This document shows positions 25,191-51,754 of a DNA stretch of 64,000 bases, piece by piece. The DNA lies in contig JANQGQ010000001.1 in the NCBI GenBank assembly GCA_028277185.1, forward strand, positions 1 to 64,000, written 5' to 3'. How positions within the stretch are numbered: position 1 is the first letter of the stretch; each line of letters starts with the position of its first letter. Position numbers and translations under genes: made by a program. Under the pieces are notes generated by a model. The model ran no database searches and was not told the DNA's origin. It worked only from the letters and a program-made list of their open reading frames with translations. This stretch comes from Woeseiaceae bacterium (GTDB lineage: Bacteria > Pseudomonadota > Gammaproteobacteria > Steroidobacterales > Woeseiaceae).

Positions 25191-25259
25191 ATGGCGGGGT
25201 TGCACGGTAAAAGGTGTCAGACTCCTTTTTGCTGGTGAACCGCCCCCAACCCCGCCATA
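25191..25259. repeat. REP-like GGTGTCAGACTCC element within a 12-bp inverted repeat
   Basis: ATGGCGGGGTTG (25191-25202) and CAACCCCGCCAT (25248-25259) are perfect complements. Between them lies AAAAGGTGTCAGACTCCTTT, the same core found at 29698-29821, 45214-45259 and 47232-47300. Here only one copy of the core is present, so this is the single-arm form of the family. Confidence 0.75.
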
Positions 25260-29697: not shown

Positions 29698-29821
29698 CCA
29701 AAAAGGTGTCCGGCTAAAAAAAGGTGTCAGACTCCTTTTCGCTATGAAGGTGTTGCGGACGTGTAGCCAGGTCGCAGCGAAAAGGAGTCTGACACCTTTT
29801 TTTAGCCGGACACCTTTTTGG
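29698..29821. repeat. Perfect 46-bp inverted repeat with REP-like core
   Basis: The arms 29698-29743 and 29776-29821 are exact reverse complements over 46 bases around a 32-base loop. Each arm carries two related cores, AAAAAGGTGTCCGG and AAAGGTGTCAGACTCC. It fills the gap between the lnt stop (29826) and the leuS start and should form a very stable hairpin, likely to affect transcription or RNA stability between the two co-oriented genes. Confidence 0.92.
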
Positions 29822-45193: not shown

Positions 45194-45213
45194 CCCGTCA
45201 GGCCACCCTAAAT

Positions 45214-45259
45214 GGTGTCTGACACCTTTTTGCGAAAAGGCAAAAAGGTGTCAGACACC
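45214..45259. repeat. 20-bp-arm palindromic REP-like element between uvrA and ATP-grasp gene
   Basis: GGTGTCTGACACCTTTTTGC (45214-45233) pairs exactly with 45240-45259 around a 6-base loop. Its right arm contains the last codons and TGA stop of the convergent ATP-grasp gene. With T runs on both strands it can act as a bidirectional terminator. Confidence 0.92.
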
Positions 45260-46123
45260 GGCCGACGTCCGGTGCGCCGCGTCGAGTGCGCGGGCGAACC
45301 GCCGCGGCGATTCCGGATCGAGGCGAAAATAGAGGGACGGTTCGATGAGCTCCAGTTCCATGAGCCAGAAGCCGCCGTCGTTGCCGCGGACATAGTCGGC
45401 CCGCGCGTACACCGGCGCCGGGGACAGGTCCGCCAACGCCGATCCGGCGAGGCGACGCAAATCGGCGGCGGGCTCCACGGCGGCATGTTCGGCACCATGT
45501 TCTTCCTGCGAGCGAAAATCGCCCGCCTTCGGCCGCTTGAGTATCGCGTGGCTGTAGTCGCCGCCGAAGTAGAACAGCGAGTATTCTCCCTCGCTCCGGA
45601 TCGACTCGGCGAACGGCTGGACGAAGAGCGGCCGGTCGACGAAGCTCTGCGCGATCCCGTCCGCGGGCGCATCGCGCCCGAGTACGTAGGTGTGGTCGGC
45701 GTTGGCGCCAACCTGCGGCTTGACCACGACACGGCCTGTGTCGAATGCGTCGAGCGCCCGCTCGACGAGACCGTCTTCCCAGCGTTCGAACCAGAGGCTC
45801 GGCACGATCGCCACGCCGCGCTCCCCGAGTTCCGCGAGATAGCGCTTATCCAGGTTCCACCGCACGAGCGCCAGCGGGTTGACGAGCAGCGCGCGGGACT
45901 CTTCGATGCGCGCAAGGACCTCGAGGAAGCCGTTCGGATCGTCCTGGTAATCCCACGGCGTCGCGATATACACCAGGTCGTAAGCATCCCAGTCCGCGTC
46001 CCGCGCGCGCCACGAAACGCTTTCGACCCGCCAGCCGAGCGCCGCAAGCGGCGGAATCGACAGCTCCGCATCGCTCACGAACGCGGACAGATCGTCCATG
46101 GTCAGGTAGGCACAGCGCTTCAT
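45251..46123 (-). CDS. ATP-grasp domain protein
   Basis: The 290-aa protein has an N-terminal region with DLVYIATPWDYQDDPNGFLEVL, a middle with GRVVVKPQVGANADHTYVL (ATP-binding lysine) and a C-terminal metal-site region YFGGDYSHAILKRPKAGDFR and WLMELELIEPSLYF. This pattern matches the RimK/DcsG-like ATP-grasp proteins that ligate carboxylates to amines, of which many have no assigned substrate. It is divergent from the YeiH gene. The C-terminal codons GV-stop come from the palindromic repeat, so the end of the protein was shaped by that element. Confidence 0.8.
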   Translation of the reverse strand: MKRCAYLTMDDLSAFVSDAELSIPPLAALGWRVESVSWRARDADWDAYDLVYIATPWDYQDDPNGFLEVLARIEESRALLVNPLALVRWNLDKRYLAELGERGVAIVPSLWFERWEDGLVERALDAFDTGRVVVKPQVGANADHTYVLGRDAPADGIAQSFVDRPLFVQPFAESIRSEGEYSLFYFGGDYSHAILKRPKAGDFRSQEEHGAEHAAVEPAADLRRLAGSALADLSPAPVYARADYVRGNDGGFWLMELELIEPSLYFRLDPESPRRFARALDAAHRTSAGV

Positions 46124-47233: not shown

Positions 47234-47300
47234 TGTCCAAAAAGGTGTCAGACCCCTTTTTGCTTAAGGCAAAAAGGGGTCTGACACCTTTTTGGACACT
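47232..47300. repeat. Perfect 32-bp inverted repeat with REP-like core
   Basis: The arms 47232-47263 and 47269-47300 are exact reverse complements over 32 bases around the loop TTAAG. The core is AAAAAGGTGTCAGACCCC. It fills the gap between the convergent YeiH gene and the large membrane protein gene and should terminate transcription from both sides. Confidence 0.93.
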
Positions 47301-47308
47301 TTCCTGGG

Positions 47309-50300
47309 CTATGCCTGAACGCGCTCCCGGCCGCGCCACAGACCGTCCCGCGCGAACACGGACCACACCCATGGCAGCCAGCGAAGCAGCGCCAGGCTGA
47401 GCCACAGCGCCCAGCCGAGGATCAGCGCCTTGTAGGTCCACAGCGGCAGCGAGATCGCGCTGCCGGTCGGCAGCACGCCGGCGACACGATCCGTGAACCA
47501 GCGAAGTTCGAACGCGTTCGAGCCGTTGCCCGCTACGTGCATGTCCGGCGTCCCGAGCAGACCTCCGGGCAGGCTTGCGAGGATCGACCCGAGCGCAATG
47601 ACGGTCAACAGCGCGAACGCGATCTGCAGCAGGTCGAAACGCCACCACGACAGATCGGGCGACCAGCGCTCTCGCAGGGCCGTCAACAGCAACCACCCCG
47701 CGACGACCGCGAGAACCGGCCAGTTGAAGGTACTGAAGCCGAGGCCGAGCAGCAGCCAGTGACGCGTCTTGAGCGGCGTCAGGCCGGTCCGACCGAGCAG
47801 TACGGCAAGCAGTGCCAGCACCAGGAGTTCCGACCAGTACAGCACGGCCGGTCCCAGCCTCGGCCCGGTCGTCAGAAGCAGCCAGCGGCTCTGGTCGGGC
47901 GCAAGCGTTACCTCGACGTTGCCCGCCGGCGCGCCGAGATCGACCTCGGGCGTCGCCGTGACGAAACCGGACCCGCGCGGCTCGCGAAACCCGACGGCCA
48001 CGGAATGCGCGCCCGGCAGGATCGGCAGCGTCAGCGTGCCGTCGACGAGCTCGAGCGGCTCCTCGTCGCCGTCCACCGCCACCGAGACGAGTTCGGCACC
48101 CGCCGGAAGCCGCAGGACGTGCTGATCGCCGCGCGTCGCCCGGTAGTCGATCTCGAGTCGCGACTCGACGAGGCGCCGCCCGGCGCGGGACACGAGGGTC
48201 GCCGAGTCGATCGCGAGGACGTCGCCTTCGGCGGCTTCCGGCCGGCGCGCGGCGAGAGTCACGGACTCGCCGGGCCGCGGGCGAAACTCCACGAGCCTCG
48301 CCCCCGAGGACTCGCTGCGATTGAGCGTCTCCGGCAGTCCCTCGAAGTCGACGTTCCAGATGGCGCCGATCGCAAACACCCAGGTCTCGGCCGCACTCTG
48401 TCCGTCGCCCGACTCGAGCGTAAGCGACGCCGTCGACGGCAGCCGGGACTGCCAGCTGACCTGCCTCTGCCCCGGCCCCATCGCGACGCTGGCAACGCCC
48501 TCGTCCACGCGGAGCGATTCCGTCAGCACGGACTCGCCGTTGATGAGCGGCAACGACACTTCCAACGCACCGCTGCCCGGCGCCACGCGGGTCACCGTCG
48601 TAGTTGCAAGCCAATCGATGCCCATGTCGATACGACGCTGGACCCGGACGAAAGCCGGAAAGCGGCTGCTCTCCCAGACGACGTCGGGACTGTCGTCCGT
48701 CCGAATCCGATCGAGCGTGAGGCTGCCGCCGGCGAGGCGCCTCTCCGTCACGCCGGCAACCGACCAGCCGTTCGCCGTCACGTCGATCGAGCGCGGCGGC
48801 TCCGGGAACGGCACCGTGACGCTGTTGGCCGCCGGCAGCGGCCCGGAGAGTCTCAGCGTATGCTGGCCGGGCGGCACGATAACGGTAAGGCGGTTCCGTT
48901 CGCGCGCCATCGCGTCGACGTTCCGACCGTCCAGCGTCAGCGCGACGGGACGCCAGTCGCCGTCCAGACCCGGCACCGGGAGCGCCGCCTCGACGCTTGC
49001 GTGCACGTCGAGTTCGATGCTCAGCGAACCGGGCTCCGCTGCCACGCGCGCCGCAACGATGTCGGCGCAGCGAGGCTCGCACGGTAACGGCGCCGTCAAG
49101 CGCTGACGCAACTCGTCGAGGAGGTTGCGGTCGGGAATGTCCGCGGCGGCCGGTGCCGGCGCGAGGGCCGCGCCCAACATCGTGGCAAGCACGGCAAGCG
49201 GCAGAATCGCGGCTGCCTTGCGGCCGAACTCGAGACCGCCGGGAAGGCGCCAGCGTCGGTTGGCCGCTTCGGCGACGAAATACGCCGCAAAGAGCCCCAG
49301 AAGCCCCACCGCCGCAAACCGCCACAGCGACACCAGCCACTGCGGCATCACAATGAGTCGAAACGCCTGGCTGGTTTCGACCGGCCCGCTCCACTCGAGG
49401 TCGTAACGGTTCCAGGACCACTCAGGGATTCCCGGCCCGGCCTGCACGAGCGCGCCGGGCTCGTAGCGGCTGAACACCCGGCCAGGCGCGAGCATCGAGC
49501 CCGTGACGACGATCTCGTCGAGACTGTCTGCCAACACCGCGGCATCTGTCGGCTGCTCGCGCCGCAGGTATTGACGTGCCTCTTCGAGCTCCATCTCCGG
49601 CGCCGCCGCCGGAAACACGGGAACGCCGGGCATCGCGTACAGGCCCCGATCGAGCTGCGGATACAGTCCGGCGCGCAGCTGCTCGGCGGCGAACGGCACT
49701 AGCGCGATCGCGAGCGCCAGCAAGCCGACGTAGAAGTAGCCGCGAAGCAGTGCGCGCAGCCGACCGGCGGGAGCGACCCGCAGCAGCGCAAGCGTCGCGA
49801 GCAGGTTGAGCCAGAGCCAGGCCGGCGACCCGGTCTCGTGATAGCTCAGAACGAGACCGGCTCCCGCGACGACGCCGCCCGCCGGGCCGAACAGCTTGAA
49901 GGCCGCCGCCGCGATGATCAGCACGAGGAAGATGTCGAGTAGCTGCCACTCGCCGATCCAGCTGCCGCGGGCGACGTCGGCGCCAGGCGCTGCAAGCAGG
50001 CGCTGACCGGGCGGCAGGTTCAGCTGGGTCGCGACACTCGCGAAGCGGCCTTCCCAGCCGGTTACGGGCAGCCTGCCCTGGCGGTCGATGCGTGCGAGCG
50101 ACTCGACGTCGATGTGAGTCTGCCGGATCTCGATCCCGCGGCCGGCGTCCGAGACGGTCACGAGCAGCTCCTCGTCGTCGCTCCGGGCGGCAAGCAGCTC
50201 GAACGGCGGCGGCATGTCGAGCCGCCAGTCGCGGCGCATCTCGCCGCCGATCCGGTCGCGGACCAGCATGCCGTCGCCGTCGAAGTCCAGCCACAGCCGT

Positions 50301-51355
50301 CGGTTGAGCCGCAGCTCGTTGTCGGCAGCGGCAACCCCGCGGCTGCGTTCCGCGATGCTCAAGACGTCGCCCGCGGCAACGCTAAAGGCCGGCAGCTGCC
50401 ACCATTCCGGCGGAACGTCGGCGCGTTCCGGATCGACCGGCGTCAGGCCCTCGGCCGCCGTGACGCGCAAGCGCTCGATCGCCTCGTAGCTCAGAATCTC
50501 GGTTCCGGGGAGGTTCTCACCGCCAACGGGCAGCGCCAGCGAGTCGATGCTGCCCGGCGCGCGCGCCGCAAGCGCAAGCTCCCAGCGACCGGGGCGAACC
50601 TGTACGCGCAGCCGGCCGTCGGGCTCGAAGCGGGCCGGCAGCGGTCCGGACAGCGACGTCGGCACATAGCCGTCCGGAAGCAGCGGGCCGAACAGGGCTT
50701 CGCGCACGCTGCCGGACACGTCCAGACGGATGCGGGTGACCAAACGAGCGGGGATGTCGTCGCTCAGCAGGCGATACACCTCGGTAGTCAGCTCGTCGCG
50801 AGCCACGGCGGCGCTGCGCCGCTCACCGAGAAACAGCCGGTCGCCGTTGAGCGCCGGGCGCTCGATTCGCCGGCCGTCGACCTCGAGTTCGATCAAGCCG
50901 GTCGGCGCCGGGATCGCGAGGAAACCCGGCCGCTCCTCCCAGCGAATCACACCGCGGACGACATGCCGCCCCGCCGCGAGTTCCAGCACCGGGCGGTCGC
51001 CCGCCGCAAGCACCAGCGCCGTGGCGCCGTCGGCGCTGACCGCTTCAGGCCAGAGACCCGCGCCGCCGGGCAGCGGCACCTGCGTCGTCTTGCCGAACAC
51101 CTCCCAGCGCTGTTCGAAGCGGGCGCCCGCCGCCGTAACCTCGAGCCGGAGCGTGCCGGGCCAGACGCACAGGCGGTTGTCGGGGTTCGAGGACCCACCG
51201 TCGAAGCGCTGCGGGCACTGCCGCCACTCCTGTCCGTGGAGTACCCAGTCCCGCCACTCCTCGAGGGCGGGCGGCACGTAGGGACCCGTCGCGGCCGCGG
51301 TCAGCGGCAGCAGCGACGCAGCGAGAAGGATCAGACGGCGAATCGCCTGGCTCAT
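47309..51355 (-). CDS. Very large internally duplicated membrane protein, unknown
   Basis: From the ATG at 51355 (GGGGAGAC upstream) the protein is 1348 aa. It begins with a signal sequence (LILLAASLLPLTAAATG), then a beta-rich periplasmic region to about 460, a cluster of three helices (about 470-560), a loop, two helices (about 680-735), a second beta-rich region (about 740-1150) and four terminal helices (about 1170-1340). The two halves resemble each other: each has a hydrophobic segment ending in an AxA-like site, a C-x(n)-C start, a VPLPG/LPVPG...PV block and a GRH/GQH...LRG turn. Near residue 615 lies DEIVVTGS, the plug signature of TonB-dependent receptors. No family recognised. Confidence 0.8.
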   Translation of the reverse strand: MSQAIRRLILLAASLLPLTAAATGPYVPPALEEWRDWVLHGQEWRQCPQRFDGGSSNPDNRLCVWPGTLRLEVTAAGARFEQRWEVFGKTTQVPLPGGAGLWPEAVSADGATALVLAAGDRPVLELAAGRHVVRGVIRWEERPGFLAIPAPTGLIELEVDGRRIERPALNGDRLFLGERRSAAVARDELTTEVYRLLSDDIPARLVTRIRLDVSGSVREALFGPLLPDGYVPTSLSGPLPARFEPDGRLRVQVRPGRWELALAARAPGSIDSLALPVGGENLPGTEILSYEAIERLRVTAAEGLTPVDPERADVPPEWWQLPAFSVAAGDVLSIAERSRGVAAADNELRLNRRLWLDFDGDGMLVRDRIGGEMRRDWRLDMPPPFELLAARSDDEELLVTVSDAGRGIEIRQTHIDVESLARIDRQGRLPVTGWEGRFASVATQLNLPPGQRLLAAPGADVARGSWIGEWQLLDIFLVLIIAAAAFKLFGPAGGVVAGAGLVLSYHETGSPAWLWLNLLATLALLRVAPAGRLRALLRGYFYVGLLALAIALVPFAAEQLRAGLYPQLDRGLYAMPGVPVFPAAAPEMELEEARQYLRREQPTDAAVLADSLDEIVVTGSMLAPGRVFSRYEPGALVQAGPGIPEWSWNRYDLEWSGPVETSQAFRLIVMPQWLVSLWRFAAVGLLGLFAAYFVAEAANRRWRLPGGLEFGRKAAAILPLAVLATMLGAALAPAPAAADIPDRNLLDELRQRLTAPLPCEPRCADIVAARVAAEPGSLSIELDVHASVEAALPVPGLDGDWRPVALTLDGRNVDAMARERNRLTVIVPPGQHTLRLSGPLPAANSVTVPFPEPPRSIDVTANGWSVAGVTERRLAGGSLTLDRIRTDDSPDVVWESSRFPAFVRVQRRIDMGIDWLATTTVTRVAPGSGALEVSLPLINGESVLTESLRVDEGVASVAMGPGQRQVSWQSRLPSTASLTLESGDGQSAAETWVFAIGAIWNVDFEGLPETLNRSESSGARLVEFRPRPGESVTLAARRPEAAEGDVLAIDSATLVSRAGRRLVESRLEIDYRATRGDQHVLRLPAGAELVSVAVDGDEEPLELVDGTLTLPILPGAHSVAVGFREPRGSGFVTATPEVDLGAPAGNVEVTLAPDQSRWLLLTTGPRLGPAVLYWSELLVLALLAVLLGRTGLTPLKTRHWLLLGLGFSTFNWPVLAVVAGWLLLTALRERWSPDLSWWRFDLLQIAFALLTVIALGSILASLPGGLLGTPDMHVAGNGSNAFELRWFTDRVAGVLPTGSAISLPLWTYKALILGWALWLSLALLRWLPWVWSVFARDGLWRGRERVQA

Positions 51356-51447: not shown

Positions 51448-51651
51448 TCAGTAGTGCGGCGGGCGTTCGTCGACCGCCGTGTCGTCCGGTCCCTCACCGA
51501 GCGCTCTGAGCCTCTCGAGCAGCGCGTCGCAGCGCTTTTCGAGCGCGTCGATCATGGCCTGCTGCCGGGTCACGACCGCGTTCAGCTCGTTGAGCGTTTG
51601 CTCCTGCCAGGCAAGCCTGACCTCGAGATCCTCGAATCGCCGTTCCGACAC
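51448..51651 (-). CDS. slyX: SlyX-like coiled-coil protein
   Basis: From the GTG at 51651 the protein is 67 aa and reads as one amphipathic helix (ERRFEDLEVRLAWQEQTLNELNAVV, then QQAMIDALEKRCDALLERL) ending in a PPHY tail. The DLEVRLAWQEQTLNELN block and final PPHY are typical of SlyX, a small protein of unknown function. The frame extends upstream to 51942, but that part is antisense to uup and unlike the family. Confidence 0.88.
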   Translation of the reverse strand: MSERRFEDLEVRLAWQEQTLNELNAVVTRQQAMIDALEKRCDALLERLRALGEGPDDTAVDERPPHY

Positions 51652-51754
51652 CCGAACGCTCCGTCTGGATTGAACCACGCGCCATGCTACCGTATCGCGT
51701 CGTCCAATCGGTTCCATGTATGCTTCCGGCCCGCGCGCGCATTCGTCTCCAACC

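Follow-up and report, generated by a model that had tools for sequence, protein, structure and literature searches.

We analysed a 64,000-nucleotide stretch of a Woeseiaceae bacterium (assembly GCA_028277185.1, contig JANQGQ010000001.1, positions 1 to 64,000; hereafter the window), taken from a 4.4 Mb genome. A single open frame on the minus strand at 47309–51355 encodes a 1348-residue protein, P0001, which is the subject of this analysis. The original prediction, made from the sequence alone, gave these coordinates exactly without stating the strand, and described a duplicated membrane protein with a TonB-receptor-like motif in its middle. Searches of Pfam and NCBIfam (E up to 10) and of PADLOC (defence systems; E up to 1) gave no match for P0001, and a sequence search of the PDB returned nothing better than E 1.2.

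AlphaFold2 models were built for each half of P0001 (mean predicted local distance difference test score, pLDDT, 85.5 for the N half and 88.4 for the C half) and showed one plan shared by both halves: a signal sequence, three periplasmic beta domains (D1–D3), four transmembrane (TM) helices, two strands and a fifth TM helix. The two strands that follow the membrane block appear to complete D3. Each unit would present three beta domains to the periplasm and be closed by its fifth helix. As the membrane block splits D3, the chain would have to cross the membrane four times before this domain could be completed. The hydrophobic segments ending in AxA-like sites that had been predicted are present, at residues about 1–24 and 714–739.

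In unit 1, the signal sequence (about residues 1–25, 51281–51355; read by eye, with a helix at 2–22 in the model) is followed by D1 (about residues 60–186, 50798–51178), which matches D1 of unit 2, by D2 (about residues 187–330, 50366–50797) and by the first part of D3 (residues 343–463, 49967–50329). The four-helix membrane block inserted in D3 spans residues 472–564 (49664–49942) and leads into a linker (residues 569–640, 49436–49651) that is variable in alignments and has pLDDT block means of 35–55. The TonB-box-like motif DEIVVTGS lies within this linker (residues 613–620, 49496–49519). The two putative completing strands (residues 650–670, 49346–49408), the fifth helix (TM5, residues 672–697, 49265–49342) and a positively charged stretch (residues 699–713) end the unit. 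Unit 2 opens with the second signal-like segment (residues 714–739, 49139–49216) and continues with D1 (about residues 759–891, 48683–49081, with Cys759/Cys763), D2 (about residues 897–1029, 48269–48667), the first part of D3 (residues 1040–1165, 47861–48238), the inserted four-helix block (residues 1173–1266, 47558–47839), the strands that appear to complete D3 (residues 1283–1304, 47444–47509) and TM5 (residues 1305–1335, 47351–47443). All of these features are on the minus strand. Positive residues, read by eye, occur in the modelled cytoplasmic stretches at residues 526–538 (RVAPAGRLRALLR), 699–713 (NRRWRLPGGLEFGRK), 1189–1199 (RTGLTPLKTRH) and 1336–1348. As these stretches match the modelled cytoplasmic side, the linker is placed on the periplasmic side.

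The internal duplication that had been claimed is clear at the profile level. Alignment of residues 1–711 against 712–1348 with hhalign gave a probability of 97.9 and E 5.5e-13 over 466 columns, with 58 homologue rows in each profile. This 58-row set leaves out nine duplicate loci and three partial ones (L068, L069 and L071); a first alignment had used 12 of the 13 loci then known (L013 duplicates L002), and the structure alignments used 57 of the 58 rows (L043 left out). With 57 rows each, the halves still aligned at probability 97.6 and E 2.7e-12, and the periplasmic parts alone scored 90.0 (E 4.2e-11); the best of 60 column shuffles scored 24.7 and a reversed profile 16.2. The duplication hence exceeds chance by far. 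The strongest domain pair was D1 with D1 (probability 97.1, E 7.5e-11); D2 with D2 (probability 26) and D3 with D3 (probability 25) were weak individually, and the membrane blocks of the two halves, compared alone, showed no sequence similarity. The helices and their order are nonetheless identical in the two half models. Of the four pairs of sub-blocks named in the original prediction, VPLPG/LPVPG, GRHVVRG/GQHTLRL and EVYRLL/FVRVQRR were aligned with each other, whereas GDVLSIAE pairs with GESVTLAA and not with GDVLAIDS.

The two units are also found apart. One genome (G679) encodes the halves separately, as genes on different contigs for an N unit of 713 and a C unit of 685 amino acids, each with a signal-like start, and the N-unit protein stops a few residues past TM5. 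This was the only clean two-gene case among the split cases inspected, and it indicates that the units are separable and that both are kept. Natural fission was rejected for G032 and G869, where the frame changes near profile positions 777–788 and the second signal sequence stays on the first frame, and for G933, where the halves sit at contig ends. The frame changes in the first two (loci L119 and L199) fall at a near-identical place, just past the second signal sequence.

Structure comparison of the models assigned D3 of each half to the N-terminal (saddle) fold of M1 aminopeptidases such as PepN and LTA4H. For unit 2 the assignment extends to sequence profiles: with the membrane block excised, hhalign against an M1 N-terminal domain (M1N) profile, built from 12 of 13 matches (the partial L215 left out), gave a probability of 76.6 and E 2.1e-5 over 122 columns lying on both sides of the insertion, with a score of 37.4, where the best of 40 shuffles reached 16.3. 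Unlike M1 aminopeptidases, P0001 has a four-helix membrane block inside this domain, and no peptidase domain was found by Pfam or in the models. The GxMEN motif is absent from all 104 homologue rows (which include 13 duplicate loci) and HE..H occurs in only one of them (L050, as HEEIH, without GxMEN), so that HExxH is not conserved. The earlier statement that no family could be recognised stands for sequence families, but D3 of both halves has a known fold. In the searches of Pfam and the PDB and in the comparison of the halves, neither a full-length match to a known family nor a lack of significant similarity between the halves came up.

The predicted TonB-receptor-like motif is real, and reads LDEIVVTGS at residues 612–620. 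In the genome, the strict pattern EE[IV]VVTG occurs at 12 places, all followed by receptor-like sequence, and a relaxed pattern which includes P0001 occurs at 47 places, with none in the reversed control. Outer-membrane receptors account for 43 of these 47 matches: 42 have a Plug domain at E up to 0.001, and one (L083) has an OMP_b-brl_4 barrel domain with a weak Plug. Two further matches are in frames of 79 and 351 amino acids (L099 and L102) without a Pfam family above cut-off, and another is P0001 itself. At least 43 receptor genes in one 4.4 Mb genome carry this TonB-box wording. P0001 shares this motif class with TonB-dependent receptors, whose TonB box is bound by TonB through strand augmentation and pulled (PMC12905483), but it has neither the plug nor the 22-strand barrel (none was found by Pfam, and the models show beta domains and TM helices), and its motif lies in the middle of an inner-membrane protein and not near a mature N terminus. 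Our literature search found no match for TonB-box-like motifs or TonB boxes in inner-membrane proteins other than receptors.

Homologues of P0001, mostly full-length, were found across Pseudomonadota, the phylum to which the family search was directed, together with a single scan of a named genome collection. Counting the window's own genome each time, homologues turned up in 21 of the 40 relatives searched, in 65 of the 246 genomes from the order, in 55 of the 369 from the class (a match in G700, over 66 positions at E 5e-4, is probably chance) and in 28 of the 398 from the phylum. The genome collection yielded one homologue, in a Woeseiaceae metagenome-assembled genome, with a best segment 58% identical. 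Distribution within the genus is patchy too: the gene was found in 16 of 24 genomes, some of them incomplete. A single plasmid record among 72,556 carried a homologue, annotated as a hypothetical protein (Azoarcus pAZKH, L043:7905-12913); this gene overlaps an isoaspartyl peptidase/asparaginase gene by 4 nucleotides on the same strand. P0001 belongs to a large unnamed envelope family of Pseudomonadota with an unusual build, in which membrane helices are inserted within a beta domain, twice. The whole architecture seems to be new, in that no known kind was found with the duplication, a membrane block in an M1N-like domain and a TonB-box linker; the fold and the motif are each known.

In homologues, the motif occupies the same place, in the unit 1 linker that joins TM4 to the completing strands. 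Linkers were counted in 91 of the 104 rows, after the 13 duplicate loci had been removed by hand. Of the 33 same-genus linkers, 21 had the relaxed motif, against a mean of 0.30 and a maximum of 3 in 500 shuffles; of the 58 others, 6 had it (shuffles: mean 0.38, maximum 3). The strict motif occurred in 14 of 33 and 1 of 58, respectively, and was not found once in the 117,928 residues outside linkers. Within the genus the motif forms a conserved island, the most conserved stretch of an otherwise variable linker, and species use different synonymous codons for it, an argument against its having been copied recently from a receptor gene. A quick tree of the same 91 rows was built with the linker excluded (support from the Shimodaira–Hasegawa-like approximate likelihood ratio test, SH-aLRT, only; midpoint root; one long-branch warning) and labelled with a loose motif pattern, from which L146 (LVSSS) was removed by eye. 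A supported split leaves 28 of the 29 motif rows together on a side of 47 rows, where each main branch of a 44-row core includes one or more of them, and the label is clustered on the tree (14 changes against a shuffled mean of 24.6, with 0 of 500 shuffles as low).

Wording of the motif varies beyond the genus, with VTVTGSR, ERIEVTASK and ERIEVTSSR in other lineages. Receptors were sampled from eight genomes (n = 30; one further match, L192, was judged spurious). The four receptors sampled from G464 include two with ERIEVTGSR, and the homologue linker there has ERIEVTSSR; in G596, ERIDVTGSR occurs in one of four sampled receptors. The single motif row outside the main clade, L144 (G964), carries LAEIAVTGSR and also MESVMVTERK in its linker, perhaps an independent gain. 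The linker of L138 (G047) contains LIEVTGSRI and a run, ITREDIDKSGV, which by eye resembles part of a receptor plug; a Plug domain was considered here and rejected, as Pfam finds none.

We propose that P0001 is a stand-alone inner-membrane protein whose primary role would be that of a non-catalytic two-unit scaffold or presenter, and that in the motif-bearing clade TonB would supply it with energy or regulation; we give this reading a probability of roughly one in three (0.35). The scaffold role is suggested by the fold together with the absence of catalytic residues, and the motif sequence suggests that the linker may bind TonB. Some 30 residues separate the end of the motif from the two strands by which the M1N-like domain of unit 1 appears to be completed. 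A pull by TonB, or its mere occupancy of the box, would act on these strands much as the pull on a receptor acts on its plug. Should the linker bind TonB, the work of the Ton motor would extend beyond outer-membrane uptake.

A number of observations weigh against this proposal. The D3 of unit 1 showed no similarity to the M1N sequence profile. Among same-genus members, 12 of 33 lack the motif or have it decayed, from the near miss EEIVTTG to EEAAATG and EEFTDAG, and the genomes of these members still hold receptors: receptor-type matches had a mean of 15.8 and a median of 11 in 12 motif-less genomes, against a mean of 18.4 and a median of 16.5 in 20 genomes with the motif. The motif is therefore not strictly required. 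Outside the genus, 52 of 58 homologues are without the relaxed motif, and a looser pattern found in 9 of 58 was little above its shuffles (mean 1.49, largest 7). The tree requires at least 12–14 gains or losses of the motif, which must then have been repeated. The link to local receptors is thin, the box pattern being seen in 12 of the 30 sampled receptors and in none of four in G964, and patterns of the exact linker variants found the homologue alone in G651, a single other place in G596 and no match at all in G464 (controls 0 or 1 each). In the window's own genome, one relaxed match (L110) falls within the folded domain of a thioesterase-fold protein. Finally, the gene neighbourhood of P0001 homologues showed no conservation beyond close relatives and gave no functional hint.

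Since the motif is missing or decayed in these 12 same-genus members and missing from most of the family outside the clade, we set the TonB-coupled scaffold equal to an alternative in which the motif is a relic. Here the motif would have come from a receptor gene by recombination, or have arisen by drift, and would sit without function in a tolerant linker of a TonB-independent periplasmic scaffold at the inner membrane. Its repeated change on the tree, the receptors kept by motif-less genomes and the plug-like run in the L138 linker are all in favour of this alternative. A relic, however, would not be expected to persist in each main branch of the 44-row clade when the linker is for the most part too variable for alignment, nor to be the most conserved stretch of that linker while its codons vary.

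TonB is known to open outer-membrane receptors by a pull driven by the proton-motive force. A more specific form of the TonB-coupled scaffold makes P0001 an inner-membrane TonB client, in which the same pull on the linker would unzip or re-seat the strands completing the M1N-like domain. We hold this to be doubtful; if true, the Ton motor of Gammaproteobacteria would have a second output, hitherto unknown. The linker might instead hold or balance TonB at the inner membrane in competition with receptors, as a brake or reservoir. The motif is of the same class as in this genome's receptors, which is consistent with competition, but members without the motif keep the same architecture, hence this cannot be the main role and we regard the idea as improbable.

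The fold of P0001 also invites comparison with ribophorin I/Ost1, as the top Foldseek matches of both halves were chains of the oligosaccharyltransferase (OST) complex (E 6.6e-7 and 1.3e-8). The C half matched 6s7o_E at E 6.7e-8, a human chain which the PDB names subunit 1, and the yeast OST chains among the top matches are presumably Ost1. The match spans the tandem extracytoplasmic beta domains through the following TM helix, and is a likeness of fold only, with a root-mean-square deviation of 11–21. P0001 could on this basis be a bacterial counterpart, a substrate-presenting subunit beside an inner-membrane glycosyl- or acyltransferase. It differs in being duplicated, in its third beta domain and inserted TM block, and in lacking a sequence-family match: beyond the empty Pfam search of P0001 itself, Ribophorin_I was not among the 11 and 12 Pfam families listed for 57 + 57 half-proteins (E up to 1). 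Ost1 is reported from eukaryotes and from TACK and Asgard archaea, and has a cytoplasmic ribosome-binding domain after its TM helix (PMC11417166), whereas only 13 residues follow TM5 of unit 2. With no conserved transferase neighbour either, we consider a counterpart quite unlikely, a shade more so than the brake. As the closest fold to the whole architecture is nevertheless that of ribophorin I, which that source reports from eukaryotes and two archaeal groups, the family may bear on the origin of this architecture. No work was found in the literature linking ribophorin I/Ost1 with leukotriene A4 hydrolase or M1 aminopeptidases. We regard a transporter or enzyme built on the duplicated five-helix block as very improbable. 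Weak matches to PF25221 (5TMH_Lnb), seen in four of the 57 N halves with E 0.031 at best, would make it acyltransferase-like, but the one located match, at residues 503–576 in the N half of L008, falls short of the curated cut-off, other families match individual members no less strongly (Nucleoside_tran in L048, E 0.0014) and no catalytic motif was identified. A match of the C half alone to BiPBP_C (E 0.064) was below cut-off and was rejected.

Around the gene, slyX lies 92 nucleotides upstream on the same strand (51448–51690, minus; Pfam SlyX E 5e-23) and is possibly co-transcribed with it, and the downstream neighbour is a convergent gene for a PF03601 membrane protein. Between the two convergent genes is a bidirectional terminator-like inverted repeat (47239–47293), whose 20-pair stem structure spans 47244–47288. 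P0001 had been described as lying alone between two repeat or regulatory boundaries, which is correct for the downstream side but not for the upstream one, where slyX is close by. Neighbours were surveyed at 23 homologue loci: among the 24 largest clusters of open reading frames (ORFs), and setting aside the gene itself and its antisense frames, clusters join only four or three loci, and the four-locus clusters comprise the window, L013, L136 and L137, all from the window's own family of genomes. With neighbours unconserved outside close relatives, no multi-gene apparatus is visible and P0001 would act alone or with unlinked partners. Of the undescribed envelope machine that had been suggested, an undescribed envelope protein family remains, while the machine is unproven.

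No Rfam match reached the gathering score between 44000 and 55000. An intergenic repeat around GGTGTCAGAC(C/T)CCTTTTT occurs in the window at 25208–25230, 29718–29801, 45209–45231 and 47239–47293, partly as inverted pairs; eight matches were found at up to three mismatches, where none is expected by chance, and it looks like a repetitive extragenic palindromic (REP)-type or terminator repeat family of this genome. A 290-residue ORF at 45251–46123, on the minus strand, has no Pfam match at E 0.01, and a related ORF of 288 residues is present at L136.

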